Shown here piece after piece: positions 20,901 through 63,117 of a stretch of 64,000 nucleotides of DNA. Numbering within the stretch: the stretch's first letter is position 1; every line of letters starts with the position of its first letter. A program made the translations under genes and the position numbers. The stretch is taken from the NCBI GenBank assembly GCA_964036195.1, contig OZ038452.1, positions 11,278,704 to 11,342,703 of the forward strand, in the 5' to 3' direction. The stretch is from Sphaerolaimus hirsutus (Eukaryota > Nematoda > Chromadorea > Monhysterida > Sphaerolaimidae). The notes below the pieces were generated by a model. The model did no database searches and was not told where the DNA came from. It saw nothing but the letters and a program-made list of their open reading frames with translations.

Positions 20901-23900
20901 ATATCGGTGGCAATATTTTTCTCCTGTTCTCGGCCGCTACTACCATCACTGTCAGTAGAATCCTCGCCCTTGCAATTCTCGCCCAAATAGAAGACCAATT
21001 TCTCTTTGATAACCAATGCGTCCCTATTCGACCGTTGCTGATAATTTTGTCTATTATCGCGCATTGATCTCATTTGAAAGCCTGTGTTTTGAAGCGCCTG
21101 CGGCCCGCCCCTCGTGTTGGCGATGTGCTTTGCGAAACTGCGCCGCGGCGTGAACGAGGCGGCGCGCGTGCGCGATTTATCAATCCCGTTCACCAGGGGG
21201 CAGTCCCAGACCCTGTAAAATGTGAAATGTCACGCAAAGAGTCAAAAGTCATGTAAAATGCCCTGCAAAATGGCAAACGTACGTTTGCAATTTTGCAGGT
21301 CATTTTACGTGACTTTTGACACTTTGCGTGACATTTCACATTTTACAGTGTCTGGGATTGGCACCAGGAGTGATGGGGCTCCGCCTTCCGAATGCTTAGC
21401 GCACGATGTCGCACGCGATGATTTCCGTCGAAAGGACTCTCTGGATGTAATCCATTATGAGAGTGGACTTTTGAAACTTGATGAGAAAAAATGGGGAAAT
21501 TTAGGGGAAGCCTGGGAAATTATTTTGGCACCGTCCTGCTCAAAATTGTCCGTTTTCCATAAATAATCTTTGAAAAATCTAACTCAAATCATGCTTTTCG
21601 ATCTTTTAAAATGAAACAAAAACCTTTCATGTTCTTCATTGGATAGAAAGCAATTTTTTGTTAAACATGCTCAAAATTGCCATCAAACATAGCTACAAAA
21701 ATAGCTACAAATATGCAAAAGGAACATGAATTAGTGGTTTTGAAGATCAAAATTTATAAAAAGGTATGAAAATTAGCGATTTTGTGGAAAATTGGGGTGA
21801 AATATCTCAAAACTAGCTCCGGATAGATAACTGGCCGATTTAGGAGGGGTGGGTCAGGGCATAGTAGCCGAAAAAGTGCCTCTGGGTAGATAGATAGCTG
21901 AGCGGCCTCCGGAATAGATATATAGCTGCGCGGTTTGGAGGGGGGTTACACCCCAACCCCCCTTTCCCACCCATCCTGCAGACCATCCCTTCACTTAAGA
22001 TCATATTTAAAACTGCTCGGCATTAAAAAATTAAAAGTTGGTCCGTTCTCACGCAATTCGCTGAAGGTCATTATTCTGATTATTCTGCTAGTTTCGGTTC
22101 AAGTTCTGAAAAATCAACCGACAATCGACCGTAAAAGTTGCCAGAAGTAACCATTTTGTTCACCGACCTGTTTGCAAATGACATTCTGAGCACGCTCTGA
22201 CTTAGTCGCGCGCCGAGTGAAGCGGAATAACGTCTCACGCGGCCGTGACGACTGCTGATGCGCAGCAACGAGCGGAATCGATTCTGAAGTTGTCGATTGA
22301 CCTGTCTTTTTGTCTTCGCACGGTAACTTGACGTGTAGGACGAGCAGGGACGTAGCCAGGAGTTTTAAGCGGGGGGGGGTCGCCATTTGTAGGCGCCGCG
22401 CCATGGCGTTATAGGCGTTGGGCATGGCGCCAATGTCAAGTATTTAGATATACCTAGGTGTAGGTGATAATAGGAGCCGAATTTAGTCATTTGTAGCGGT
22501 AGTTATACTCCTGAAGTGTAGATAAGAAAAATTGACTATGTGGGGCGGATGCCCCCCCCCCCCTGGCTCCTTGAGGACAAGTAACTCTCTGTCTCTCACC
22601 TGTCTGAGGTCTTTGAACTGTCTAGTGAATAAGAAGTAGATGAGCGGGTTGAGCAGCGAGCTCAGGTTGAACATGTTGTGGCTGATGTCGCGCAGCAAGT
22701 GATACAGTTGCGCGTGCTCGATTATCCACTCCGCTTTGACCATGCGCAAACAAAAGCCGCCTGTATACGTTCGTGGATTGACATGTGCGGGTAGTTTGTG
22801 CAAAACTAGGGATGGAAAAAACGTTGTTTTTCTAATCGAAGTTCCCAAGTATGGTTATGGATCAACATATACAGGTATGTCAGGCAAGTGGCAGTACTTT
22901 GTAAAGGCTAATACAGGCTAATACATTAGACCAACGCTTTAGATTTTGAATAACTTGACACTGGGTTGCCGGATGAAAGTCAAATTGCCGTCGAATATTA
23001 ACAACTAAAAAGGAAAGGTTTCCACAAAATATGGCTGCACAAAGATAGGTTCACTTTGTCACAAGTTATTCATGCAAACGCATAATTGTCATTTTACCAC
23101 CACCTCGTGATAGGGTTCAAATGGGATCGACTTTTCGGGACCGGAATAGGGATCGTGATTGTTTTTTTCAGGGTTTTTTTCAGTTTTTATTTTCGCAGCG
23201 GCATGCCTAAATGCGTGCGCGCGCGCCACTAATCAGCCTTACCGATAAGGAAATCAACAGACGCTTGCGTCATTGGTTGTAATTAGGGTGTCAACCTTCC
23301 ATTTTCCGTTTCCGTTTTTCCGGACCATTTTTCCGTTTTCCGGTCAAGAACCATTTCAGTTTTTCCGGACCATTTTTCCGTTTTCCGGCTAGATCCATTT
23401 CCATTTTTCTGGACCAATTTTCCATTTTCTGGCTAGATTTTCAGTTTTCTGACATCTTCCCATTATCTTTCTGCTGTGTATTTTATCTTATTCCACTGGT
23501 ATTTCTTTCCCACTGGAAGTCCCACTTTCTTTGTAGCAATTTGAAGGCTGAAACAGCTTAGAAGTTGATTATGTTACACCAACTGTCGCCTCAAATTGAT
23601 TATTGTTACACCATTTGATTTTGATGCAGTGATCTTTGTGGCACTATGTGGCATTTCATTGTCTCATATACTCTGCAGACTGCATGCCATGTATTTTTCA
23701 GAAGAAAATGTACCATAATGATACCATCTCAATGAAAGATCACTTGTATCCAACTCAGCCCTGACATTTCGGTTGCATACATTGCAGTCTGCTGAGTGTA
23801 CTCTTATACTGTTTACTGTTATGTTACATCACTGATCCATTTTGCTAAATTCAGAGTATTATTGTTACTTTGATCCTTTTGTAATGATTTTTGCTGGTTC

Positions 23901-26900
23901 AGTTCAGATGCTCAGTACAAGGTACACTGGTACAATCAAAAATTCAAAACTATACAGCTACCACAATCATAGCTAAACAGACAAACCTGCATGCAGGTGT
24001 TTTATGTTAATTTTTCCATTTCTAGCACAATTTTGTTAACTTTTTTCGTTTCCGTGCAAATTTCACTTTCCGTTTTCCGGCATTTCATTTGTCCGTTTTC
24101 CGTTTTCAGGCCGATAAATTCTTTTACCCTTTCCGTTTTCCGTTTTCCGGCAGCTTTCAAATTTTACCCTTTCCGTTTTCCTTTTTCCACAAAATTTTTT
24201 TTTGACACCCTAGTTGTAATGCAAGGTGGTTGTAAAGTGACGATTATTGGTGTGTGCTAGGATAACTCTTGAACCAGTAAAGCGATCGCAGCCATATTTT
24301 GTGGAAAGCTTTCCTATTTAGTTGTAAATGTTCACCTAAAATTTGAGATTTATCCGGCAACCCAGTGTCAAGTTATTCAAAATCTAAAGCATTTGTCTAG
24401 ATTTCCGCACCCTGTACATTGACAGTGTTTCACTAGAAGTGTGTGGGTTTGGATAAAAGGGCAAAAATGTCAAATTAAATTTGTCAGGGGACTTTAAATC
24501 GTTCATGGCTGGCCCATAATCTCCACCCAGCCAACCTGACCCGCCTGCAAACAGCAGTACAATTATCCACAGTCGCAGTTTCACAGTGCGCATTTCCCGC
24601 TGTTCCAATGGACTATACTGGTGATTAGAAGTCTGCAATTTGCGCGCATCTGATTAATTTACAGTCATCGTGAAACTGGATTTTGTTTCATAATAGGTAA
24701 TGGCTCACTGATTTTCTGATTGCTCTGGATCGTCTCAGTTTTCGAACAATCATTGCATTGAAGAAAATCACCGCTATTAGTGGCAGCGCCCACACAAACA
24801 GCGGGTAGAACACCTTGTTCATCTGAAAATTCACAAATTCACACTGTTTTCTGACGTGTGTAGTTTGCTCTATGCCAGGGACATGTCCTGGGGTCTTCCC
24901 ATTGGCTGGACTATATAAACAACAAATATTACCCCTCCCCCCTCTCAAAAACTCCTGGATACGTCCCTGCTCTATGCCAATTTAAAGCTGTGGAAATAAC
25001 GCACGAGCAGCGTGTACCGATAATCGACGATCAAATAGACTTGCAGTCCCACGTTTCCGTCTGCGTCATACACGTAGATATATTCCCAGTACCGGATGGT
25101 GTTCACTGCCGCACTGAGAAGCACTATGCCGCCGATGGCCGTCACCGAGCGACGTTTTTGCGTCGCTGTATTCAGTGGTCTGCAAATCGCCTTGAATCTC
25201 TGCACCGAAACCAGCACGATTATCCATATGGCGGAGTAATTTGCGGCCATTAGAAGTGGATTTAATGTGCGCACCCCGTAGATGACCATGTTGATCAGCT
25301 GGTCGGATATGAGGTTGTAGGCGGTTCTGCGTTGTGAGAGTGTCTAAAGGATTTACCGTATTTCCTCGAAATACCCCCCCCCCTCAATATGGCCAGTATG
25401 AATTGATAACCCCCCCCCCTCGAAATTCTCGCCCCCTTCTGGAATGGGATCGGTTTGCCATTTACCCCTCAAAATTTGCACTATCAAAAAAATTAACCCC
25501 CGGGGGGTATTTCGAGGAAATAGGGTAAACAGAACATTTGACATGCAGTGCTCCGCACTTTGTGCCGCGCGGCCGCGATCTCACCTGTAGAAGCCCTCCA
25601 CGGCGGGCAAAACGAGCACAAAGAATGAACACGACAGTTGCGCAGCGTCCGATACGCTGAGCGCCAGCAAGTAGGGCACCAGGGAGGACCGATTCCCTTC
25701 TATCATCATCCTGGTTAAGGCACAGAATGTCAGCACGTTGGCTAGCAGTCCGCAAAAGATGAGCGCCGACTGCACGTAGACGCCCAAAATGCAGTTTGTC
25801 ATGTCCATCTTAGGCACTCGCAAACACTGAAGTGCCCTGTAGAATATCAAACGTCGTACAAAGTGCCAAAAGTCATGTAAAATGCCCTGGAAGATGGATA
25901 ACTTGTTTTCCATTTTACATGGCATTTTACGCCATTTTTGACACTTCGCGTGACATTTGACATTTCAGGGGGCATTTTACAGGGTCTGGGAGTGGCACCG
26001 GCTGCGCCAGGTGGATGCACACTGCGCTGATCGACGCGCCGCTCTGGTCGATCGGCGATGCCGTTTCGGTTAAGCTCACGTTTTCATGAGACATTCTGCA
26101 AATATGTTTAATCTTGACTCGTCGGTCGATTTAGCATATTATTAGTGTGAACGGTGTATGCAGCATCAACGGTGTTGGCGATTTCCCAATTGGTGAAGTA
26201 ATTTCAAAGCTTCCGCCGTGACTCCCGTAAATATGGCGACTTGAAGCGATAGTGCCATATAGTGCCTAAAATAGTGCCATCCTGTGGGAGATGATTGCAA
26301 GTGCATGGTGCTTTATTTATAAGCGGGCAGTGATATTTATTATTCAAGCGAATAGCGACTGCTCTTCATCTTTATAAAGTAGCCGCGTTTTTACGTCAAT
26401 CATTGGAATGCTCGTGAGGCCGTTGCCGATTCATTGTGATGGAAAGTCGGCAGAAAAATGCAGAGTTGGAAAAACGTATTTACGTTTACCCGAAATACCC
26501 GGTTATTCGGGTATTTATACTTACGTTTACGTTTACGTTTTCCAAAAATACCATTACGTTTTGTTACGTTTTCCTGACCAAAATACCCGGGTACTAGAGA
26601 AAACGTAAAAAAAACTTGTGATCGTTCACACGTGTACATGTTCAAATGGGCTGCACCACCTGCAGCCAACGATATTTTTATGTTTTTGCATAAACGTGAT
26701 ATGTATATGTACAAAAAAGTAGTGTATGAAAAAAGTCACTGCACGCTTACACTTAACATGGCATACTGGGTACATATTCATAAATGTGTTCAAATGCTGA
26801 ACACAGAAACATTTTTGCTTGTTTGTGGAGCCTTGCATTTATCAATTTTTTTGTGATGAGTTCCGACAACACCACCTGCAACAACTGTGAGTAGCACACG

Positions 26901-29900
26901 TTTTAAAACTGGCAGGGCGAGTGCAAGCTCAGGACTCTGTAGGATGACCTGTAAAATGTAAAATTTCATGCAAATGTCAAAACTCATGTAAAATGCCCAG
27001 CAAAATGGCAAAGATTTGGCACCTTCCATGGCATTTTGCATGATTGTAGACACTTTGCATGCCGTTTGACATTTTACAAAGCATTTTACAGAGTCTCAGA
27101 CTCCCCCAGAATCACCAACCAGCGTATTTGGATTTGGCCACACTAACAACAGAAAGTGGTGCAGATGGAGCGATTGACCCATCTAAAGGTGAAAATAATG
27201 GTATTTTCCAAAGCACAATGGCAAATACTGTGTGTAAAATTTTTTACGTTTACGTTTTTTTTACGTATTCCTTGGTATTTTAAAAATACCTTACGTTTTA
27301 GTATTTATACTTTTGATTTGGAAAAGGCATTTACGTTTACGTTTACGTTTTCCAAAAATACCAGTATTTGCACAACTCTGGAAAAATGGCGCCATGGCGC
27401 CATTTTAAAAAGAGCGTTGAGCGCCAGAGGGCAACCGAAAAGGGAGCTATTCCAGCACTACTGATACATTAATATTTATGATTCCTCGTGTTGGGGTTGA
27501 CAAATCAAAATAATATATTTACTTAGTGATATCGCATAATGGGTTGCGGTAAAAGAGATCTCATGAAAGTTGATGTTATTATGCTGGTTTAACTTTTACC
27601 GTAGAAATATTTTAGTGTAAATCACAACGCATTTGAGTTTACTGGAATGAGGAGTCCGTCAACTTCTCCTGACACCGATCAAAAATTATTCATTGCGGTG
27701 AAGTCGAACGTGTTTAAAACAGATGTATGGTTTTTGCAAGTTTCCACTGTAAACTAGTGTGTGGAGACATTTAGGTACCACAGCAAGCTTATTTATTTTC
27801 CTGACAAAACTTGCTATCTCTGGCCAATCGCCAGATTGTGAATAAACAGCATGTACCTATTTCTGTATATGAATAAATTCGCTATATTGCGTGCGGTTGA
27901 GTGATTCCTCCTTCCCTTAACCGTCGTTCATAGCTCAGTACTGTGACGTGATCTTTTGTTGACGTTTTGGGGATATCGTCCTTTACCTGTAATTCTCGGG
28001 ACACTCCCAGACCCTGTAAAAGCTAAAATGTCATGCAAAGTGTCAAAGTTCATGAAAAATGCCCTGCCAAATGGCCATTTTGCAGGGCATTTTCCATGAC
28101 TTTTGACACTTTGCATGACATTTGACATTCTACAGGGCATTTTCCAGGGTCTGGGAGTGGCACCTAGCAAAAAATTCTGGCACTGCAAATCAGCCTCCAG
28201 TATTTTCACGACTTTTGGCGACTTTTTCTATAAAAAGCACTGGCCAACGCTCCAAGCACATGTGAAGGCGACATCATTTGTATTACCATATGAATGGTGT
28301 GGATATGTAAGTGGATGATGTGTTTGGCATGCGCAAACAGGAGGTCAGACATGCAAATAGCATTTTGAATGGCTTGGAAATACATGGTCTTTTAATACGA
28401 CACTGTGTCGCGCCGTGAGTGACTTCAATTAGAATTTGAAATAGTAGCTACACTTTTTCACTTCCATGCCATAACCAGGAAACAGGAGAATAAGACATTT
28501 AGCAGAAGCTTGTGCATGCAAATGCCACAGCGCGAGCCCATCACCAGGGTTGGTTTTATAAAAATTAATTTTAGTAAAATTGTATAAAAATTGTATAAAA
28601 ATTTTATTTTATTTTAATTTTATTCTTGTTTCATTTTATTTTATTTTATTTTATTCCCAAAAGTCATTAATAAAATAAAATGACCCATTTTACAAAAATT
28701 TTACAAAAATTGTACAAAAATTTTACAAAAAATCAGAATCATGCATGCAAGGCCAGAAAAATGTTATAATTAGACCTATACATGAAAAACCTGTGACAAA
28801 TTTTTCCCTTACTTTTCAAAAGTTGCATGCAGTATGTATGTCATGCAAAGTGTGAATTGTGTATCCAAATTTTGTGTTTTTGTATCCATAGTATGTTTTG
28901 TATCCAAATCTTATGTTTTTGTATCCAAATGTTCACATAAGATTTGGATTCAACAACAACATAATTTGGATACAAAACATAAGATTTAGAAATAAAACAT
29001 GAGATTTGGACACAATTTGCTTGACAATTGATACTTTAATTTTTACATGTCATGACAATTTACACTTTACTTCACATTTGTCATGACAATTGACACTTTG
29101 CATGACATTTTACATGACATTTGACACTTTACAATGCTTGGGACTGCCCCCAGATCCGTGAATAAACAGGTACAAACTCAAGCAATGAGATTAAATTTTA
29201 CAAAAAAGATGAATTTTGATACAATTTTACAAAAATATGAATTTTTATACAATTTTACAAAAATTTTACAAAAATTTGAATTTTTATACAATTTTTATTT
29301 TTATTCTGAAATTTTCCATTTTATTTTATTTTATTTTATTCTTGAATATTCCATTTTATTTTTATTTTATTTTTATTTTTTTCTGAGATTTTGCCAACCC
29401 TGCCCATCACACAAATGAGATGAGAATGTCAAAAATGATTCTCATTACTCAGTCAAATTAGTTATTTCTCATCAGGTTATGTATGTGAACACACAAATGC
29501 CACACTGACTTATCGGTTTGAAGGCTGAAAGATTATCTGAGGTGCAATCTTGTTGCTATGGAACGGCATGCACATAAATACACAATCAGATTCCCATAAA
29601 GTTCGAATTTGTACAAATATGTATGTGTAAATTAGAATCTATTCAAATTTAGTACTTGCACTAGCCCTTATTTTGTATTTACGCATAAAGCTTAATGTAC
29701 GTAGCAACGATGTATCGTAAGCAGGTTTTTCAGTGCCTTTATATTGAATTTTATTATGAAACAGAATTAGAAATATAAAATGCTGTACAAATTCTCACGT
29801 CTGTAGACCTGTCGTGCCATAGATAGTGCACCTACGATATGCCACAGACTTACACAAATATTTAGATATGTTTTGTATATTTATATTTTGTAATTTACCT

Positions 29901-38900: not shown

Positions 38901-40186
38901 ACTGGGCGCACTTGGTCGCTGGAGACTTGGATATTGTGCGACTTGATTTTAAGCGATTGAATAGTGGCTTATTGACGCTGTGCACACTGATGCACCGAAT
39001 TTGGGAACCTCATAGACTTGTCTGTTTTGAATGCATTTGGGTTAACCAGAATGGCCCTACACACACTAGTCGTCACCGTGACCGATGTGAAAACTGAAAT
39101 GGCAACATCCAGCCTAGTCTGTTTGTATGCTATGTGTGTCTTAGTCTTCAAATTTAAACTTCCATTATTTTAAATTCAACTTTAAATTAAATCAAATCAT
39201 TCAACAGTGTTCATTAATTTGCATTTAAATTTTTTTAGTTTTCACACGAAGTCACGGTGAAAACTAGTGTGTGAAGGCACAATGGGCCCACACACTGGTT
39301 TAAATCAAATTTCGTGTCAACTAAATTTTGGTTAATTATATCATTTCAACTATCCTATCTGATGGAGCGTAGTCAATTTTATATCGTGACACTTAATTTT
39401 CATTGTTTCTGTTCAGTTTCATGCTAAAAAATTTTTTTGTTATTTAGTTGACATTCAGTTGATATCTATTCCCGATGTCAACTAGTGTGTGGGTCCAATG
39501 AGGAATCTACTATCGACAGCTATCCAAAATCATTCTTTTAAACTGTGAAATGTGTTGAAATCAGAGTTACGAGTTTCCTAATGTCGACTGTGTACTAGTT
39601 TTATACCGAAATTTTAAGCTCATAAATAGGCTTTGAACGCATTTTAGTTTACCTGAATAAAATGTATCTGATCTCCATCAAGTTGACGGTCACATTATAC
39701 TGGTAAAATTAAATCTGGGGTCAGTTTCGCAAGTGGAGAAGTGAGAAGTGAAATGGCAAAAGCGAAGTAAAACGGAAAAAGTGAAGTGAAATGGCAAGTA
39801 AATTGGCAAAAGCGAAGTGAAAAAAATAAAAATAAAAAGTAATTTCCTTAGAGTAAAAGTAAAAAAGCGAAGTGAAATGAGAAGTAAAATCGCAAAGTGA
39901 AGAGAAATTATTATTATTTTTTTTTTTACTTCGCTTTTGCCAGTTTACTTCGCTTTTGTCATTTTACCTCTCACTTCTCCACTTGCAGAACTGGCACCAG
40001 ATTAGTGAGTTTACAAAAAAAATTGCCTATTAGTTAGCAATTTCTGTGGCTTACTAAAGTGAAGGGCCAATGTGAGCTGATTCCACATTTCAGGTTTCCC
40101 GCGCCACAAAGTCAAGTGCAGACGCGCCACAGTCGCTCTTCAGTACAGAAAAATTTGCACTGAAACTTGCTCCCGCACGCCGATAG
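6280..40186 (+). CDS. VPS8: VPS8, CORVET complex subunit (28 exons, about 1516 aa)
   Basis: VPS8 is the Rab5-binding subunit of the CORVET tether on early endosomes. It has an N-terminal beta-propeller, a long alpha-solenoid and a C-terminal RING-H2. The 28 exons assigned here are flanked by AG and GT, keep phase throughout and total 4551 nt (1517 codons), with ATG at 6280 and TAG at 40184-40186. Similarity to animal VPS8 is recognisable along the whole length, for example DSGGSLF, HVQLVYQ, RSWLERIDALL, PLIVDACILLQR, LHFDTREFLNVL and CGHLVHWAC. The protein is a little longer than the human one (about 1430 aa). Intron 19 (20613-32669) holds an antisense GPCR gene, and the intron splitting the RING holds an antisense tRNA. 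Many other introns hold MITEs. Exon coordinates are in the three block entries below. Individual small-exon borders (exons 2, 4, 9) are less sure than the gene call. Confidence 0.95.
7360..7650. repeat. Degenerate CTATCTATC-family fragment in VPS8 intron 4
   Basis: The stretch holds a GGGGGGGGGCTCGAGGGGC run followed by GCTAAAAATAGG-type and GATTTTGAAGGTGAAAAT motifs that recur at 4740, 44780 and 46230. Ends are not found. It lies between VPS8 exons 4 and 5. Confidence 0.45.
8182..8816. mobile_element. hAT-like element, TAGGGTTGG family, with perfect 8-bp TSD
   Basis: It begins TAGGGTTGGAGAAAAAAACG and ends ATCGGCCAACCCTA, flanked by TTTGTGAT at 8174-8181 and 8817-8824. At 635 bp it has no coding capacity. 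Relatives: 10214-10743, 16377-16994, 59685-60348 and a truncated copy at 42540-42858. It lies in VPS8 intron 5. Confidence 0.85.
9078..9758. mobile_element. Fold-back element built of AAAGTACCGATCTACA units
   Basis: The ends are TGAAGGGTGTGCTTCTAAAA and its inverse GAAGCACACCCTTCA, each next to TA, so the TSD may be TA. Inside are about eight spaced copies of (A)AAAGTACCGATCTACA, mostly in one orientation, which may be transposase-binding subterminal repeats. It ends 13 bp before VPS8 exon 6. Sequence 8820-9077 upstream has similar character but no clear end. Confidence 0.6.
9944..10070. mobile_element. Truncated TACCGTAT-type element supplying a VPS8 splice donor
   Basis: TACTGTATATCCTTAAATAAG closely matches the end of the element at 51569 (TACCGTATATCCTCGAATAAG), followed by the typical GTTATTTTTTC...GGGGAGTTATTCGAGG text. 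The VPS8 exon 6 donor GTATAT (9948) is within this end. The other terminus is not found. Confidence 0.55.
10214..10743. mobile_element. hAT-like element, TAGGGTTGG family
   Basis: It runs from TAGGGTTGGAAAAAAACG to CATCGGCCAACCCTA. The left flank is CATAGACG. The right flank, read across the neighbouring later insertion, is CATGACG, so the TSD carries a one-base difference. The next element (10750-12301) inserted at its very right end, using TACATGAC as target. Confidence 0.75.
10750..12301. mobile_element. hAT-like element with CCGTTTTCC arrays, carrying a BEL/Pao fragment
   Basis: Ends are TAGGGTGTCAAATTTCCG and TTGACACCCTA, with a perfect 8-bp TSD TACATGAC at 10742-10749 and 12302-12309. 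Both subterminal regions are tandem (CCGTTTTCCGGCxGAAAATTTTTACCTTT) arrays in the same orientation. The middle (about 11050-11820) is the Pao-type pol fragment. Relatives: 14932-15422, 23284-24212, 52311-52487. VPS8 intron 6. Confidence 0.85.
11004..11815 (-). pseudogene. BEL/Pao-type retrotransposon pol fragment, frameshifted and internally deleted
   Basis: Three abutting minus-strand frames carry order-preserved pieces of a Pao-type reverse-transcriptase region: LPMGKAEALVRLKSLIRRF with QYRKVLDNQLEKG, then IYVDNFIMSVTNEVEALELY with MNMREWLSNS, then LVSAYDPIGFTAPVSL and WDEPIEDKY. Frames change near 11560 and 11250. The central palm segment is missing, and no gag, protease, integrase or LTRs are visible. 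It is a dead fragment, entirely inside the hAT-like element at 10750-12301. The call rests on motif order only. Confidence 0.7.
13345..13655. mobile_element. TACCGTATTT-type element in VPS8 intron 9
   Basis: It starts TACCGTATTTGCTTGAATAA 10 bp after the exon 9 donor and holds CCCGTGAAAAATTC/GAATAATCCCCC text in inverse halves. The right end is degraded near 13655, 25 bp before exon 10. It fills almost the whole 345-bp intron. Confidence 0.6.
13842..14014. mobile_element. Palindromic MITE, TIR CACACTAGTTGACATCGACA
   Basis: The left arm CACACTAGTTGACATCGACA and the right arm TGTCGATGTCAACTAAAGTG frame CAAAGCTTG/CAAGCTTTGA, a near-complete palindrome of about 170 bp. Related ends occur at 39284-39505 and 55691-55938. 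It starts 12 bp after the VPS8 exon 10 donor and makes up most of that 236-bp intron. Confidence 0.75.
14932..15422. mobile_element. hAT-like element, TAGGGTGTC family, perfect TSD
   Basis: Ends are TAGGGTGTCGACAATTTTT and TTTGACACCCTA, with TSD GTGGAACC at 14924-14931 and 15423-15430. Inside are CGGAAAACGGAAA arrays, reverse-oriented relative to the 10750 copy. It occupies most of VPS8 intron 12 (14903-15482). Confidence 0.88.
15483..20612 (+). CDS. VPS8: VPS8 exons 13-19: alpha-solenoid
   Basis: Exons: 15483-15727, 16150-16282, 17217-17399, 17775-17976, 18178-18337, 19781-20003, 20352-20612. They encode the helical solenoid with strong landmarks: VPLIVDACILLQR, LLLECLEDRLL, VMTLCRANRLWDGIAYVYNRALNEYIEPL, GNKVLLYVSCCLCGTAYPIG and LHFDTREFLNVLSMAF, each with a counterpart in human VPS8. 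All junction phases agree. The exon 18 acceptor at 19773-19780 is the right-hand copy of an 8-bp target-site duplication made by a hAT-like insertion (see findings). Exon 19 runs into a 12-kb intron. Confidence 0.93.
16377..16994. mobile_element. hAT-like element, TAGGGTTGG family
   Basis: It runs from TAGGGTTGGAAAAAACACG to CATCGGCCAACCCTA. TSD is ATTAAAGG/ATCAAAGG (7 of 8). Internal text matches the 8182 copy closely. It lies in VPS8 intron 14. Confidence 0.82.
17435..17640. repeat. CAGGGACG-family fragment (GGCGTTGGCACC type)
   Basis: G-runs (GGGGGGGGGGTT, CGGGGGGGGGGG), then GGAATGGAATCATGGTGCTGGCACCATTT. This is internal sequence of the GGCGCC-rich hAT-like family seen at 115, 34880 and 35540. 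No ends are visible. VPS8 intron 15. Confidence 0.5.
18354..19544. mobile_element. hAT-like CAGGG element with a nested TAGGGTTCAAACG element
   Basis: Outer ends are CAGGGCCGTATCCAGG and CCTGGATACGTCCCTG; TSD CTTCATTC at 18346-18353 and 19545-19552 is perfect. Nested in it is 18394-19157 (next entry). The right half has the GGCGCCATGGCGT motif. It starts 16 bp after the VPS8 exon 17 donor. Confidence 0.85.
18394..19157. mobile_element. Nested hAT-like element with ATATCGAAT arrays
   Basis: It runs from TAGGGTTCAAACGATAT to ATATCGTTTGAACCCTA, with a perfect 8-bp TSD GCTGCAGC (18386-18393, 19158-19165). Both subterminal regions are dense (GA)ATATCG repeats around a non-repetitive core of about 370 bp without an ORF. 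Relatives by terminus: 31066-31402 and 34469-34645. Confidence 0.88.
19599..19772. mobile_element. Short hAT-like element at the VPS8 exon 18 splice acceptor
   Basis: It starts TAGGGTTGGTAACCCGACAC and ends ATTCCCAACCCTA, with CGATACCCGAACCC repeats inside. The TSD TCCCTCAG (19591-19598 and 19773-19780) is the 3' splice site itself, so each copy ends in AG. The upstream AG keeps the original pyrimidine stretch; the downstream one directly abuts exon 18. Confidence 0.85.
20888..26094 (-). CDS. Class-A (rhodopsin-like) peptide GPCR, nested antisense in VPS8 intron 19
   Basis: Seven-transmembrane receptor, probably for a neuropeptide (FMRFamide/myosuppressin-receptor-like; ligand not determinable). 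Exons in coding order: 25999-26094 (ATG, MSHENVSL, N-glycosylation site), 25585-25826 (TM1-TM2), 25005-25326 (TM3-TM4; DRY replaced by QRF in SVQRFKAICRPL), 24709-24822 (TM5, FYPLFVWALPLIAVIFF), 24527-24632 (TM6; donor could also be at 24536), 22600-22760 (TM7, LSSLLNPLIYFLF), 22168-22326 (basic tail), and 21436 to 20888 (tail end). The tail exon is interrupted by a MITE at 21198-21368. Without that insertion the phases give about 525 aa. The start of the last exon and the TM6 donor are uncertain. A second copy of the same MITE fills intron 1. If neither tail nor frame survives splicing, the gene is a recent pseudogene. Confidence 0.85.
21198..21363. mobile_element. MITE-A copy inside the GPCR tail exon
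   Basis: Near-perfect palindrome. The arms carry CAGTCCCAGACCCTGTAAAA and its inverse ending TCTGGGATTGGCA, around CAAACGTACGTTTG. CCAGG flanks both sides (21193-21197, 21364-21368). The net insertion of 171 bp splits continuous coding sequence (APSLL before, VNGIDKS after). Same family: 25827-25998, 26930-27110, 28001-28164, 56871-57036; diverged: 45935-46158. Confidence 0.85.
21760..21975. repeat. CTATCTATC-family hAT-like fragment
   Basis: TATAAAAAGGTATGAAAATTAGCG, GATAGATAGCTGAGCGGCCTCC and CCCCCCTTTCCCACCC match the right part of the 52641-54214 element. The left end is missing. It lies between GPCR exons 7 and 8. Confidence 0.55.
22345..22573. mobile_element. hAT-like CAGGGACG element filling a GPCR intron
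   Basis: It runs from CAGGGACGTAGCCAGG to CTGGCTCCTTG, flanked by AGGACGAG and AGGACAAG (7 of 8). The GPCR intron 22327-22599 is 273 bp, and this element with its TSD makes up about 245 bp of it. Confidence 0.8.
22807..22925. repeat. Fragment of a TAGGGATGGAAAAAACG hAT-like family
   Basis: TAGGGATGGAAAAAACGTTG then ATGGTTATGGATCAACATATACAGG, matching the start of copies such as 34068 and, more distantly, 8182. The other end is lost. GPCR intron. Confidence 0.5.
22936..24391. mobile_element. Fold-back element with a nested TAGGGTGTC element
   Basis: Inverted arms GCTTTAGATTTTGAATAACT...GACACTGGGTTGCCGGA (left) and their inverse (24350-24391) enclose the hAT-like element 23284-24212. No coding capacity. 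GPCR intron 5. Confidence 0.7.
23284..24212. mobile_element. Nested hAT-like element, TAGGGTGTC family, perfect TSD
   Basis: It runs from TAGGGTGTCAACCTTCC to TTTGACACCCTA. TSD GTTGTAAT at 23276-23283 and 24213-24220. CCGTTTTCCGG arrays at both ends, 550 bp of unrelated AT-rich core, no Pao fragment. Confidence 0.85.
24876..24969. mobile_element. 94-bp hAT-like element, CAGGGACG family, perfect TSD
   Basis: It runs from CAGGGACATGTCCTGG to CCTGGATACGTCCCTG, with CTCTATGC on both sides (24868-24875, 24970-24977). It is the clearest evidence that the widespread CAGGGACGTAGCCAGG ends belong to an 8-bp-TSD transposon. GPCR intron 3. Confidence 0.85.
25354..25527. mobile_element. TACCGTATTT-type MITE in GPCR intron 2
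   Basis: TACCGTATTTCCTCGAAATA with C-runs, then the inverse GTATTTCGAGGAAATAGGGTA. A near-perfect 174-bp fold-back. Confidence 0.75.
25827..25998. mobile_element. MITE-A copy forming GPCR intron 1
   Basis: The coding-strand right end is GGTGCCACTCCCAGACCCTG; the left end is degraded (CAGTGTTTGCGAGTGCC). The spliced segment is 172 bp: donor GTGCCA is the MITE's own end, acceptor CTTCAG is inside its other end. Both sides are phase 0 (HLAQP / CLRVPKMDM). Confidence 0.75.
26461..27380. mobile_element. hAT-like CAGAGTTG element with ACGTTTACGTTT arrays
   Basis: It runs from CAGAGTTGGAAAAACGTATT to TTGCACAACTCTG, with a perfect TSD GAAAAATG (26453-26460, 27381-27388). Subterminal TTTACGTTTACG repeats. 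A MITE-A copy is nested at 26930-27110. A sister element with AAAGCGTAAGCG units is at 40795-41340. Confidence 0.85.
26930..27110. mobile_element. MITE-A copy nested in the CAGAGTTG element
   Basis: CATGCAAATGTCAAAACTCATG... and its inverse around CAAAATGGC. Ends diverged (CAGGACTCTGTAGG / AGTCTCAGACTCCCCC). Confidence 0.7.
28001..28164. mobile_element. MITE-A copy
   Basis: ACACTCCCAGACCCTGTAAAA on the left and CAGGGTCTGGGAGTGGCACC on the right, with the CATGCAAAGTGTCAAAG / CTTTTGACACTTTGCATG arms. Right end same subfamily as the GPCR intron 1 copy. Confidence 0.82.
28545..29402. mobile_element. hAT-like element with TTTTATTTTATT and TTTACAAAAATT arrays
   Basis: It runs from CAGGGTTGGTTTTATAAAA to TTTGCCAACCCTG, with a perfect TSD CCCATCAC (28537-28544, 29403-29410). 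A truncated MITE-A-like piece with TGTATCCAAATCTTATGTTT repeats lies at about 28840-29150. Confidence 0.82.
31066..31402. mobile_element. hAT-like element (TAGGGGTCAAACG) with a nested MITE
   Basis: It runs from TAGGGGTCAAACGGGACC to GTCTCGTTTGAACCCTA, with a perfect TSD ATCTCAAC (31058-31065, 31403-31410). Nested at about 31127-31347 is a fold-back with ends GTACCAATTCCGTAAAAAG / TTTTTGCGGAATTGGTA, related to 39717, 56357 and 62534. Confidence 0.85.
32670..40186 (+). CDS. VPS8: VPS8 exons 20-28: C-terminal solenoid and RING-H2
   Basis: Exons: 32670-32780, 34684-34841, 35213-35483, 36340-36418, 37296-37454, 37863-37945, 38023-38258, 38725-38881, 40094-40186. Exons 20-25 are helical (VGAAELLLEFVPDKL and others). 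Exon 26 ends with the first zinc pair CHLC; exon 27 supplies CGHLVHWAC and CPLC, giving a C-x2-C...C-x-H-x2-H-x2-C...C-x2-C RING-H2. The small last exon encodes SADAPQSLFSTEKFALKLAP, resembling the extreme C-terminus of human VPS8 (SAPAF..IFQNENFQLQL). This is why I end exon 27 at 38881 (GAG, then GTGCTA) and do not follow its open frame to the stop at 39095-39097, which runs into a MITE. Confidence 0.9.
32877..33279. mobile_element. TACCGTATTT-type element with GTGTATAAGG ends
   Basis: TATCGTATTTTTCCGTGTATAAGG and the inverse CCTTATACACGGAGAAATACGGTA. Internally CATAGTGCCCGGGCACTATGC palindromes are repeated about four times. VPS8 intron 20. Confidence 0.72.
33545..34680. repeat. Composite repeat block in VPS8 intron 20
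   Basis: 33547-33925: CTATCTATC-family fragment starting CAGGGGTTGAG. 33935-34060: (GGTCCC)n array introduced by ACATGGTTCGGCAAA. 34066-34445: TAGGGATGG-like fragment. 34469-34645: an element with TAGGGTTAAAACTTGACC / GTCCCGTTTGAACCCTA ends and GGTCCCGGTCCC arrays, the same array as at 33940. The order suggests one (GGTCCC) element was split by later insertion. Confidence 0.5.
34870..35200. repeat. CAGGGACG-family fragment before VPS8 exon 22
   Basis: GGGGGGGAGG..., GCGCTGGCACCATTTGTTGGCGCC, ending CAGGGTACGTCCTTGG near 35163-35178. Together these are internal and terminal pieces of the GGCGCC hAT-like family. Its end lies about 35 bp upstream of the exon 22 acceptor. Confidence 0.5.
35520..36330. 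repeat. VPS8 intron 22: GGCGCC-rich fragment and hAT remnant
   Basis: 35540-35660 repeats TGACGTTGGCGCCAT. 35860-35905 ends CGGGCTACGTCCTTG. 35990-36180 resembles a diverged TAGGGTTGG element (CACAAAACCAATGAAAACAAC). Remainder: no feature seen. Confidence 0.5.
36930..37240. mobile_element. TACCGTATTT-type element in VPS8 intron 23
   Basis: TGAATAGCCCTCCCCC at the left and GGGAATTATTCGAGCAACTACGGTA at the right, with AGACGAGTGAGGAAAAATAA as at 13400, 41690 and 55000. The left terminus is lost. Confidence 0.55.
38486..38557 (-). tRNA. tRNA-Pro (anticodon AGG)
   Basis: The reverse complement folds as a canonical 72-nt cloverleaf. The acceptor stem is GGCTGAG paired with CTCAGCC. The D arm contains GGTCTAGTGGCATGAT, the anticodon stem CTCGC/GCGAG encloses TTAGGGT (anticodon AGG), and the T arm is CCGGGTTCAATCCCCGG. 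The anticodon-arm sequence is typical of eukaryotic tRNA-Pro. It has an internal pol III promoter (A and B boxes) and lies antisense in the VPS8 intron between the two RING-coding exons (38259-38724). Confidence 0.95.
38882..40093. repeat. VPS8 last intron: three palindromic MITEs
   Basis: 39050-39284: CCTACACACACTAG family. 39284-39505: CCCACACACTGG...CAACTAGTGTGTGGG family; the two abut, sharing AATGGG. 39717-40000: fold-back with CTGGGGTCAGTTTCGCAAGTGG and its inverse, interior AAGTGAAATGGCAA units. 39505-39716: no feature. Confidence 0.7.
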
Positions 40187-55667: not shown

Positions 55668-56673
55668 GTACACAGATCCAAAGTCCGATCGGCCCTAGAC
55701 ACACTAGTTGACAACGACAGCCAATGTCAACTGGTTCCCATCCCAATTCAAAGCTTGCTAAGGAGTAACACTACCCAGTGTGGTATACGCATATATTTCA
55801 TGCCGGTATGGTACATTGCACATTGACATACCAACAATACAACTTCATTTTCAACAAAATGCAACAGTATGCACTTGAACGTCTCTAGTCGGCTCGTGAG
55901 CAAGCTTTGAATTGGGATGGGAACCATTAGGCCCATTATTTGGGAAAAGTTTTGGATATTCTTGCAATTGCATGGACATGGTTTACAACAGAGGATATAC
56001 TTGAAATTGCATTGACATGGTTTACAACAAGCAACTAAATAGAGGGTTTGTTCTTCCTGGAATACAATTACAGTAACACATTTACTTATGTAAATTATTT
56101 TTACAAGGTCTTTTTACATAAAATAATGATATATTTTTCGAACGTTTTTCGTTGGCGCTTTTTAAAACGCTAGTGCCAAGCGCCAATGGCGCCACAGCAT
56201 CATAGCGCCAGGCGCCAAAAGCGCCATGGTGCTTTTACATCACTAATCATAAGCATTTTGGCACTGAATGACATGAAAATATAATTGAGCAAATTCGTGA
56301 CTAGGTGATGACTAGCGGAACGGAAAGCTATCCTAGAAATAAAACATAACGATTATGTGCCAATTCCGCAAGTGGAGAAGTAAAAAACACATTTGAGAAG
56401 CGAGAAGTAAAATGAGAAGTGAAATGGCAAGCTAAAAGTTAAAAGAAAAGTAAAAAGTTTTTTTCTTATTTCACTTCTCAGTTTTTATTTTACTTCGCTT
56501 TGACTTATTTTACTTCGCTTTGACTTATTTCACTTCCCACTTCTCAAACGGTTTTGTTACTTCTCCACCTTCGAAATTAACCCCAGATAAAATTTAAAGT
56601 TCCTAAACGTAGGCAATCGATCTAAATGTAGCACCAGTGACAATCCACAAAGCAACCCAAGTGCACAACTCCC

Positions 56674-59600
56674 CTAATCAGCTTTGGTCTTCTTGTAGAC
56701 TCCACAAACTACGCCTGGCATGCGGCCAAGTTGCGCGGCGACGGACACGGCCACCGACGCGGCGAGCGCAGCCTCGACCAGCTGGAAGGCGCCCAGCCAG
56801 CCGCTGAGGGCAGCCGCGCACGCAGCCAGCGGCCAGCCGGCCAACACCGCGCCCAGTTGACTGGCCAGGGGGGCAGTCCCAGACCCTGTAAAAAGTCAAA
56901 TGTCATGCAAAGTGTCAAAAGTTATGTAAAATGCCCTGCGAAATAGCGAACATACGTTTGCCACTTTGCAGGGAATTTTACATAACGTTTGACACTCTGC
57001 ATGGCATTTGACATTTTACATGGTCTGGTATTGGCACCAGGGCGACGAGCGCGTGCGAAGTGCCGCTCAAGTGCGCCGGCGCCGCCTCGGTGGCCACCAG
57101 GCCGAAGATGTTCAGGTTGCCGTAGATGACGAACCCCAACAAGAAGGCCGACAATTGCAAGCACGACTGCGAGACGTGAGGGTTAGATAAGTATTTGACA
57201 TGGTACACGTCATAACGTGACCGAGCTTATATCTTTTAAATTGAAGTGCATTAAATTTACACTAGGAAAAATTGGACACAGTATCATCAGTGTTGTGTGA
57301 TATCGAATGTTACCACCGTCAAATAAATATTTTTGAAATTCAAAATTGTTTCTAAAAAATAAAAATGGAGCAAAGACAAATCCGACGAAGATAAAGAAAA
57401 CTGGCGCAGTAACCTGATACAAAATGATATAATGGATCAGTGCCAAGGTAGCGATTGTGTAGACCAGCGAAACACGCATCCTCGGATTTGGGGCATTCTT
57501 GTCTGTCACATCCTGAAATGTACGTTAATTTTGGGTTACACCATAGGCTCGAGCACTACACGCGGGCACGCTCAAAATTTATAAAAGCGTCAGTAACTAT
57601 ACACGTTCTCAATATATTGGCTCATTCAAAGTATAGAAAGCTGAAATAGGAGATAATCGCTAAAATAAGTTGAAAATAATCAAAATAGATAAAAAATAGC
57701 TAAAAATAAATACAAATAAAACCATGTACTTAGCAGTACACAAAACAGTAAACACGACTATATTTGAGGCGTCCAATTCTAAAAGTCGACAAGTCCAAAA
57801 TATGAAAATTTCGAGTTAGGCCCGGAAACGTCATCTGGGGCTACTTCCGCACATTTTTCATCATTTTCCATAAATTTTTTGACCTCACATGCCCATATGG
57901 CATAGTGCCAATTTGACATTTTTGGGGAAAAATGCAAAAAATTTGGGCAAGAAGTCGACAACTCCACTTAGTTTTGGGCTAAAAGGCGACAAGTCCATCC
58001 TCCGCTTCCTTTTTTATGTGAAAAAAACGCAAGAAATGTGATAAGTCCACTATGGGCACCGATTTCTAAAAGCCGACAAGTACATAAATTTCCCATAAGG
58101 GAGGTGCAACGCGGGCGGGAACAAAAATGAACTTGCCTGCAAGAAGGTACCAAGTCCATTTCCCTCCCAAAAACAGTTTTGCTCTGACCGAATGGAATTT
58201 TATGGACACCCCATTTTTCACATATACGTTGGGATTAGGGGCTGAAAATTTGACACTTTATTGTCAACATATGGAACTTAATGGAAAGCATGAGAGAGCC
58301 AAATTGGACACGCACCACGGGCCTGGAATTGGGTCTGAAACTTAAAATGCGATTTACTCAAAATCACATTTTGTGGACTTGTCGACTTTTATAATTAGAC
58401 GCCTCATTTGTAGAAGTCGATCTTTCACCAATCCTAGTCCCACAGCCGGTTCTTCTTTCTTATGCACGTAAACCAACATGGCTGGCCATCATCCAATCCG
58501 TCAAATAGCCAGTAAAAACACAAGTGATGAATCCACCAGTTTCAAACGCGCCCATGAATGCAGCACTCGCGACTGGCGACAAGTGTTTCTCTCCAACGAG
58601 CAAAAGTTGAGCCCAATTTTCCACGGCCGTTTTGCATGTGTAACTGATTAGATAATTGACACTCAAAAGCCACAGCAGGGGACTTCCTAGTAATTCTGCC
58701 CACCCGCTCAAATTACTGTCATCGGGAGATTTCGAATGTTCTGAAACGGAAATGAAAAATCTAATTATCAAAGCTGATTGATTTTTTTAAATAAATTTTT
58801 CAACTTTTTTTTAAAACTAGAAAAAAAATTTTTACCAAGAGTCTCCGAGATTTTGACACTCCTTGGGACTGAAAAAAAATCCATTTTTAAACACCTTAAT
58901 TGAAAAAAATCAATTTAAGAAAAAATCTTTTTATTTATTCATTAAAATCAGATTTTTTAAATCGTCCAAAATGGGGGTATAGAGAAAAATTATGTGTTTG
59001 TTGAGTGTCAGACAATGTATTGTACTCTGTTGTGGTCATATTTATAATGACTGTGGAGTCATGGGATAGCACTATAAGTAGTCATATTCTTTCAAAAATA
59101 TCAATTTTTGGTTGACTTATTACATAAATCACCTTTTATCGAACATTCATGACTTCAAGTGAAGTTCAGCATGGAATAGTGCTTAAATAAGGTTGTCAGA
59201 GAAGGCTAATACAGTGATGTTACTTACACACTGTAGAAGTATGTGGGAGCACACTGGCTAAATATTTTTTACTACACTAGCATATTACAACTTATTATTA
59301 TATGGTAGCATAAATAAATGGAAGCTTTAACACTTAAAATGCTTCAAAACCCATGAAAACACCACCAATGGTAATGTGCATGAGAAATTGCGTGCTTGCA
59401 AAATACCTAGTGCAAGTCTACCAGAAATTTTGCATATTGATTTTTATAATTATAATCAGTTTCCACCCTGTAATTTTTTTATTAAAAAATCAGTTAAAAA
59501 AATCAAGTGCCAACCCTATGGATGGGCGAGATAGATGGGCGATTTCAGTGGGTAACCCCCTCCCTTTGAAGACCGTCAGATGTTACAAAATGGATACTAG

Positions 59601-62389: not shown

Positions 62390-63117
62390 GAAAAATTGAC
62401 TGTGGAGTTGACATCGGCATACAGAGTTTTGCTAGATCAGTAAAAAATGTGCAGAATCGTCCATGCGGTTCCCGGTATACATCGGTACCGGTTTTCAGAA
62501 AATTCACAAATTTCATATAGAAAGTGTACGAGTCCACCAGTGGTGCCAGTTCCGCAAATTGAGAAGTGAGAAGTAAAATGGCAGCAATGCTTTGGCAAAA
62601 TGGCAAAAACGACATGAATTGAGAAGTAAAATGGCAAAAGCGACGAGAAATTTACTTTTTTTTGTTATTTTTTACTTCGCTTTTGCCAATTTATCTGCCA
62701 ATTCACTTCACTTTTGTTACTTAACTTCGCTTTTGCCATTTTACTTCTCACTTCTCATTTTGCGGAACTGCCACCAGGAATAACGAAATCTTCAGGTCGA
62801 ACATGCATAAGTCTCTCGCAGACAACAGGAGTTTCATTCCAACAGTGCACAAGTCAAAAACATTGTTTCATTTCCAAAACTGTATACAGAATACAGTGTT
62901 CATTTCAAAAGCTGTTCACCATTGTGTAAATTATTGTTTTGTTTACATAAATTTTCTATATTCTGTATAGGTATAGTATTTGTATTTATCTGCCTAATCA
63001 TATTGATGATTGAAAAATGCATTCAAGATTATTGTGAAGCTAAGTTTTAAAAAGGTGTAAAAGAAGACTGAAATGTAATTAGGTAAAAATAATCAGGTAA
63101 AGATCTGCAAAATGTAT
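62390..63117. repeat. Dispersed repeat with a nested fold-back MITE
   Basis: 62400-62533 and 62779-62935 correspond to the repeat at 2850-3330 (GTTCCCGGTATACATCGGTACC; GTTTCATTTCCAAAA). 62534-62778 is a fold-back with GGTGCCAGTTCCGCAAATTG / TTTTGCGGAACTGCCACC. 62936-63117: no feature. Confidence 0.6.

Follow-up and report, generated by a model that had tools for sequence, protein, structure and literature searches.

MITE-A, a family of near-palindromic hairpin elements of about 190 bp, very probably acts as an introner in Sphaerolaimus hirsutus. It would be a non-autonomous DNA transposon that duplicates CWG at its target, and the copy within a putative GPCR gene is included in this reading. 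The window analysed here is a stretch of 64,000 nucleotides (contig OZ038452.1, positions 11,278,704 to 11,342,703), and the searches were extended to the whole genome (348 Mb in 762 contigs). The first-pass annotation of the window had proposed MITE-A as an intron-generating family. The coding context of the copies, their strand bias and the conserved proteins restored by their removal all support this proposal at the level of sequence. We infer that MITE-A is removed by the spliceosome and, from predicted RNA folds, that its hairpin has a role in the removal.

Structure and proposed origin of MITE-A

A 48-base pattern of the MITE-A arm, allowing up to three mismatches, matches 2697 places in forward and 2601 in reverse orientation (5,298 genome-wide), and the reversed pattern used as a control matches none in the genome. 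As each copy carries two arms, the genome should hold some 2,650 to 5,300 copies. The element ends were defined from an alignment of 25 copies, of which 20 came from elsewhere in the genome and five from the window. MITE-A starts with GGTGCCAnTCCCAGACCCTGTAAAATG and ends with CATTTTACAGGGTCTGGGACTGCCCCC. Since the two ends differ (GTGCCA versus GGGGCA), the element has an orientation. Insertions are found at CCWGG and are flanked by a 3-bp duplication of CWG. Among 81 distinct copies, 32 carry CAG on both sides and 22 carry CTG on both sides (54 concordant) and eight are discordant for A or T. These counts are inflated, as the adjustment of element bounds by 1-2 nt used a score that favours matching CWG. 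One strand reads CAG/GTGCCA...TGCCCCCAG/G (slashes mark junctions), with the GT provided by the element and the AG by the duplication. For one copy, in an AMPK-gamma gene, a paralogous empty site was found.

Target duplications of 5'-CWG-3' are the hallmark of the NuwaI group of PHIS (Harbinger-related) transposons, which occurs mainly in animals (PMC4482050). MITE-A shares these duplications, and unlike NuwaI it is too short to encode a transposase. Its sequence suggests a fold-back MITE of the NuwaI group with an origin in the PHIS/Harbinger superfamily. The Harbinger domain DDE_Tnp_4 has 163 matches genome-wide, mostly with very similar scores, for example at C7:12423491-12424123, at L113:1-1100 and at 39050, 45130 and 54662 in the window. 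The 3' side of the domain was readable in a single copy (L113), which holds no MITE-A end there, and no transposase with MITE-A-type ends (GTGCCAnTCCCAGACCC) was found. The 3' side of L113 instead holds ACTAGTGTGCGCGGGGCC, the reverse complement of which resembles repeats of the window holding GGCCCTACACACACTAG. Related hairpin repeats, whose ends resemble GTGCCAGTTC(C/T)GCAA, lie at 39715-39997, 56355-56530 and 62541-62777 of the window and are likely a second family of the same transposon type as MITE-A. Telomere-type arrays, sought as five TTAGGG or six TTAGG units, gave no exact match.

Coding context of MITE-A copies

A copy was counted as coding if both 99-bp flanks, after removal of one duplicate of the CWG, scored as coding in one continuous frame. 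The codon model combined the codon usage of 19 GPCR exon pieces with general amino-acid frequencies. The threshold of -2.7 is the 95% quantile of random window positions, so that 5% of these pass. The model replaced a test of ORF length, which separated in-frame from shifted joins weakly (60-61 versus 44-47 of 81 with both arms of at least 25 aa). The sample favours copies with intact arms. It comprises 20 of 40 scored hits (L009-L028) together with the first 30 and a further 40 of the 100 exact-arm places listed (L029-L058 and L059-L098), where second arms and some clustered places were skipped. These 90 loci yielded 81 distinct elements, as some loci held two and some none and copies with the same left flank were collapsed. 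Six elements without a GT start were dropped, and 19 elements from 20 left-CTG loci as well as five from eight left-CAG loci (20 intended) were added.

The first-pass annotation had suggested checking whether element ends fall at splice sites more often than expected throughout the genome. The nearest equivalent on our sample speaks for such a coincidence, as 44 of 99 GT-starting copies are coding with the frame kept, compared to 36 of 202 random CCWGG sites (Fisher 1.8e-6). Random CCWGG sites are the fairer control because CCWGG itself is commoner in exons. The coding copies are strongly oriented, with 40 in sense (GTGCCA first) and four in antisense (binomial 1.7e-8). Coding DNA often scores high in antisense as well under the codon model, and one of the four antisense-scored copies (L011) is in sense by trypsin homology. 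Phases 0, 1 and 2 are found in 24, 3 and 13 of the sense coding copies. CCWGG sites fall into the same phases at 12:1:6 in the training exons and at 20:7:12 once the flanks of coding copies are added. The scarcity of phase 1 had raised the idea of a 21-residue insertion left by an internal donor and an internal acceptor. This idea was rejected because CCWGG shares the skew and conserved proteins leave no room for such an insertion.

Cutting at the element ends restores a range of conserved proteins. The alpha-tubulin join (L014, NNYA/RGHYT) aligns without a gap to PDB chains (E 6.7e-46), and its flanks are nearly identical to PDB tubulins. Alpha-tubulin, AMPK-gamma and SLC37A4 are the three cases in which a gap-free junction was established residue by residue; the others were judged by profile ranges. 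Profile matches span the junction in a RhoGAP (L050) and in the ligand-binding domain of a nicotinic receptor (L094). A trypsin is restored at L011, a second trypsin with the element at another position at L018, and a DUF4590 protein at L023. Two junctions about 1 kb apart (L135 and L136) match successive stretches of the chondroitin GalNAc-transferase profile and probably belong to a single chondroitin synthase gene that holds both MITE-A copies. Pfam searches at E <=0.1 gave no match for four of ten joins in one set, including SLC37A4, which matches by PDB sequence, and for five of ten joins in another set. Several of the remaining matches in these two sets are at chance level. Among individual readings, a patched-like protein at L062 was not confirmed in the Pfam search, and a UDP-glucuronosyltransferase at L069 is weak (E 0.002). 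At L082 (C6:19927322-19928369), a membrane-protein-like antisense frame would require an intron with GG...AG ends; the sense frame scores better in the codon model, and the aquaporin-like antisense reading has no Pfam match.

A second sample was drawn starting from genes rather than from elements. Thirty loci around 7tm_1 exons hold 13 elements, of which 12 were scored and eight lie above -2.7. All eight are in sense, and seven are distinct (L099 is L009 again). Four of five joins tested match 7tm_1, and all four matches span the junction. The codon scores of this set are not fully independent, as the model was trained on exons of the same loci, in contrast to the Pfam matches, which are independent. 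The copy found twice (L009/L099, C3:19415727-19415914) lies in the TM1 region of a GPCR, and its right end is CCG, neither AG nor TG, with an intact joined frame.

The GPCR copy and other copies in the window

Putative coding exon 1 of the GPCR gene (MSHENVSLTETASPIDQSGASISAVCIHLAQP, 25999..26094, minus strand) was placed by translation with hand-counted coordinates. It is separated from the next exon by one MITE-A, as the first-pass annotation had it, and the donor GTGCCA is indeed formed by the initial six bases of the element in the 25-row alignment. The acceptor had been placed at CTTCAG, which gives an intron at 25827..25998 on the minus strand. This acceptor inside the element is possible and in frame, but the MITE-A end lies 18 nt later, at CCTAAG/ATG. 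The 14 bases that follow CTTCAG, TGTTTGCGAGTGCC, align with the MITE-A 3' end (consensus GGTCTGGGACTGCC). As the bases following CTTCAG align with the element 3' end, the residues CLRVPK added by this acceptor would be derived from the element. CTTCAG probably falls 18 nt short of the acceptor, and by the alignment the intron is best placed at 25809..25998 (minus strand, 190 nt), reading CCG/GTGCCACTCCC...GAGTGCCTAAG/ATGGAC. Phase 0, as originally proposed for this junction, is kept with the last intron base at either 25827 or 25809 and is broken by the stronger-looking acceptor TTCTACAG (25837). Exon 2 (MDMTNCILGVYVQSALIF..., 25585..25808, minus strand) ends at TACAG/GTGAGA, a 3' boundary set by eye. 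It is followed by intron 2 (25327..25584, minus strand), an ordinary GT...AG intron that is not a MITE-A, also drawn by eye with an acceptor chosen by frame (CAACGCAG/AACCGC).

The flanks of the GPCR copy have codon scores of 11.9 (exon 1) and 7.4 and thereby rate as coding in the joined frame. The hairpin of the copy has a predicted RNA fold of -79.3 kcal/mol (z -8.0). The flanking trinucleotides are CCG and AAG, with no clean CWG pair. The copy is likely a single MITE-A intron that has aged and now ends in AAG. If exon 1 is coding, the protein would join ...CIHLAQP to MDMTNC (or to CLRVPKMDMTNC). Translation could instead start at ATGGACATG, which would leave this MITE-A in the 5' UTR or upstream; the family might then still be an introner. 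We consider such a start unlikely, although several observations favour it. ATG GAC ATG follows directly on the 3' side of the element, the duplication is degenerate, and exon 1 has no homology support. The identity of the gene is itself weak, with 7tm_1 matches (exon 3 at E 1.3e-4, a model joined by hand at 3.3e-4) that both fall below the curated cut-off. Against an upstream position, exon 1 is open in frame, scores well in the codon model and has the right phase at the donor. MITE-A copies also lie in coding-looking sequence of other GPCR genes, including N-terminal and TM1 regions (L099 and L111).

The claim of three coding insertions within 36 kb holds in part. It stands for SLC37A4 and likely for the GPCR copy, and is not confirmed for the copy near the GPCR 3' end, which had been assigned to a tail exon. 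The SLC37A4 insertion (56869..57037, minus strand, 169 bp) is in phase 0 and reads GCCCTG/GTGCCA...CCCCC CTG/GCCAGT, that is with GT...TG ends. The tail-exon copy (21197..21364, minus strand) has CTG on both sides, and its sense frame is open across the junction. The codon model gives this sense frame no support (best scores 2.7 and -6.9), and the antisense frame would just pass (9.9 and -2.1). In both of these copies the duplication is CTG and not CAG. A further copy lies at 27998..28163 on the plus strand (core 28005-28156, ends extended by 7 nt). A degraded copy was recovered by alignment at 26934..27110 on the plus strand, being too degraded for the element finder.

AG ends, TG ends and the hairpin

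The right-hand duplication ends in AG in 54 of the 99 copies, in TG in 35 and otherwise in ten. Among the 44 coding copies, 14 have CTG at the 3' end, so that the intron would run GT...TG. The first-pass annotation had overlooked these CTG ends, including that of SLC37A4, and with them that many copies would end in TG. According to the GT-AG rule, TG-ended copies should not be spliced. The coding rate of TG-ended copies (14 of 35) is nevertheless close to that of AG-ended copies (29 of 54; p 0.28). Coding TG copies are also as diverged from the consensus as AG copies, with mean identities of 88.6% (13 measured) and 89.3%, respectively, and values for non-coding copies of 88.8% (AG) and 88.6% (TG). 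TG-ended copies with conserved flanks are found in AMPK-gamma (STKL/VVFDT, gap-free), SLC37A4 (ALVAL/ASQLG) and the chondroitin transferase (L136). SLC37A4 was found as a single gene in the genome, both pieces flanking the insertion are free of stops, and two of ten upstream open frames tested match the transporter family. AMPK-gamma has a paralogue without the insertion, in which the uninterrupted ACCAAGTTGGTC matches the joined ACCAAGCTGGTC. A dN of 0.16 versus a dS of 0.89 over 56 codons speaks for constraint on this pair, although, with an uninterrupted paralogue present, the interrupted copy does not have to be functional.

AG is favoured at the MITE-A 3' end. Genome-wide, right ends are CAG in 549 and CTG in 341 cases, compared to 705 and 554 at left ends (p 0.009). 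Among GT-starting copies, 11 of the 40 with CTG on the left have CAG on the right, and 1 of the 37 with CAG on the left has CTG on the right (p 0.0035). In the gene-first sample of 30 7tm_1 loci, none of the eight coding copies ends in TG and seven of eight end in AG. The simplest reading is that TG functions less well than AG and that T-to-A changes are retained.

We suggest the following mechanism for the creation of these introns. MITE-A inserts at CCWGG and duplicates CWG, and a sense transcript reads CWG/GTGCCA...TGCCCC CWG/G. The element provides the 5' GT, and the right-hand copy of the duplication the 3' end. Removal from GT to WG would restore the original coding sequence in any phase. 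In the RNA, the hairpin might pair the internal ACAG sites and draw the ends together, which could explain the choice of a weak terminal acceptor. The first exposed dinucleotide, AG or TG, would then serve as the acceptor. The hidden internal AGs may still serve U2AF early, with the hairpin presenting the element end for the second step. It is conceivable, if somewhat short of an even chance, that hundreds of GT...TG introns born from MITE-A are routinely spliced in this animal, with the hairpin hiding internal AGs and TG slowly mutating to AG.

Predicted folds are consistent with such a role of the hairpin. The hairpin of the alpha-tubulin copy has a z of -16.8. Across 157 internal ACAG sites in the 99 copies, mean predicted pairing is 0.96, compared to 0.51 for the terminal pair. 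A generic splice-site model finds the terminal acceptor weak and the internal TTTTACAG stronger. An internal ACAG lies 18-20 nt before the end in six of the seven CTG-ended copies listed and, by alignment, in the seventh (L020). All 15 distinct copies examined offer other in-frame GT-AG pairs, some of which outscore the element ends. Most of these pairs would add or remove residues, but a few hardly alter the length, L094 by one residue and L136 by none (six residues exchanged). Because plain consensus prefers internal sites and other in-frame pairs exist, structure must do real work in the proposed model.

These stronger internal sites also speak for a rival route, in which an internal ACAG would be spliced to an internal or exonic donor and the protein would keep changed residues. 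A published introner lengthens the transcript by 12 bp (PMC9860276), and other in-frame pairs are available. We still regard this route as improbable. The internal sites at the usual 19 and 31 nt do not keep the frame when paired with the GTGCCA donor (L138 is an exception) and are predicted to be 96% paired. Internal splicing would also place inserts in the tubulin, the CBS domain and the transporter, all of which show no gap at the join if the cut is made at the element ends. Another route is hairpin-dependent removal in which the terminal dinucleotides are irrelevant, with the nonconventional introns of euglenids as a cited parallel (PMC4770533). The long predicted hairpin draws the ends near each other and CTG is tolerated in coding sequence, as such a route would predict. 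However, a near-symmetrical hairpin should work in both strands, yet coding copies are GT-first at 40:4. The preference for AG at the 3' end speaks against this route as well, and we consider it highly improbable.

The coding copies could also be unspliced. MITE-A might simply prefer GC-rich exons, and the insertions might be disruptive and represent dying or polymorphic alleles. CCWGG is often coding anyway, as seen at the 36 of 202 random sites, and the 3' AG is missing in 15 of the 44 coding copies. Disruptive insertions would not explain the 40:4 strand bias, and coding copies are no younger than others as judged by identity to the consensus. The single SLC37A4 gene, with its stop-free flanks and family matches upstream, and the near-identity of the tubulin flanks to PDB tubulins also argue against unspliced insertions, which makes this explanation very improbable. 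Removal at the element ends remains our preferred reading.

MITE-A shares much with the introners of a survey that recovered them in 175 of 3,325 genomes (Gozashti et al. 2022 PNAS, PMC9860276). Those introners, too, are non-autonomous DNA elements, many of them with TIRs and target duplications, and give rise to introns at many new positions. Their splice sites may be split between element and duplication, and mRNA length mostly remains unchanged. The evidence for MITE-A is of the same kind, with many unrelated coding positions, element ends that coincide with the ends of the putative introns as judged by protein continuity, and signs of transposition in the sequence. Unlike the introners of that survey, MITE-A brings the 5' GT itself and draws its 3' end from the CWG duplication, in which an A or T in the middle gives AG or TG. 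A search of the open-access literature, which leaves subscription journals and preprints mostly outside, returned no report combining introners with Harbinger or NuwaI with introns. Non-canonical introns of the larvacean Fritillaria borealis are reportedly linked to MITEs. This species likewise carries non-GT/AG introns at genome scale, with less than 10% of introns being GT/AG (PMC13326754), compared to GT-AG at the one ordinary intron read here. The GA- and GG-donor introns of the copepod Eurytemora affinis are another case of many recent animal introns that break the GT-AG rule (PMC5714493). In that species it is the donor side that departs from the rule, with acceptors nearly unchanged, whereas MITE-A keeps a 5' GT and deviates at the 3' end. 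TG 3' splice sites in humans are described as rare, verified in 36 genes and used only as alternatives to AG, and U2 introns ending in TG need an AG within 28 nt (PMC2374985). In MITE-A an internal AG precedes the end by about 19 nt, and in many copies TG would be the site at which cutting restores the protein.

Reports of introners in animals are rare, and MITE-A is a large family. Among animals and land plants, the survey gives two groups only, both animals, with copepods named (PMC9860276). As MITE-A is large, with ends and sites still readable, and lies in deeply conserved genes, the birth of introns should be traceable copy by copy. Whether the duplicated base is A or T depends on the chance of insertion, which provides a natural paired experiment of AG versus TG in many places. 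It becomes testable how far the spliceosome accepts a 3' end other than AG if the ends are held together by RNA structure, and whether selection improves new introns after their birth. The chondroitin transferase locus with L135 and L136 (C1:5419834-5421498) carries one AG-ended and one TG-ended copy and forms a natural paired test of its own.
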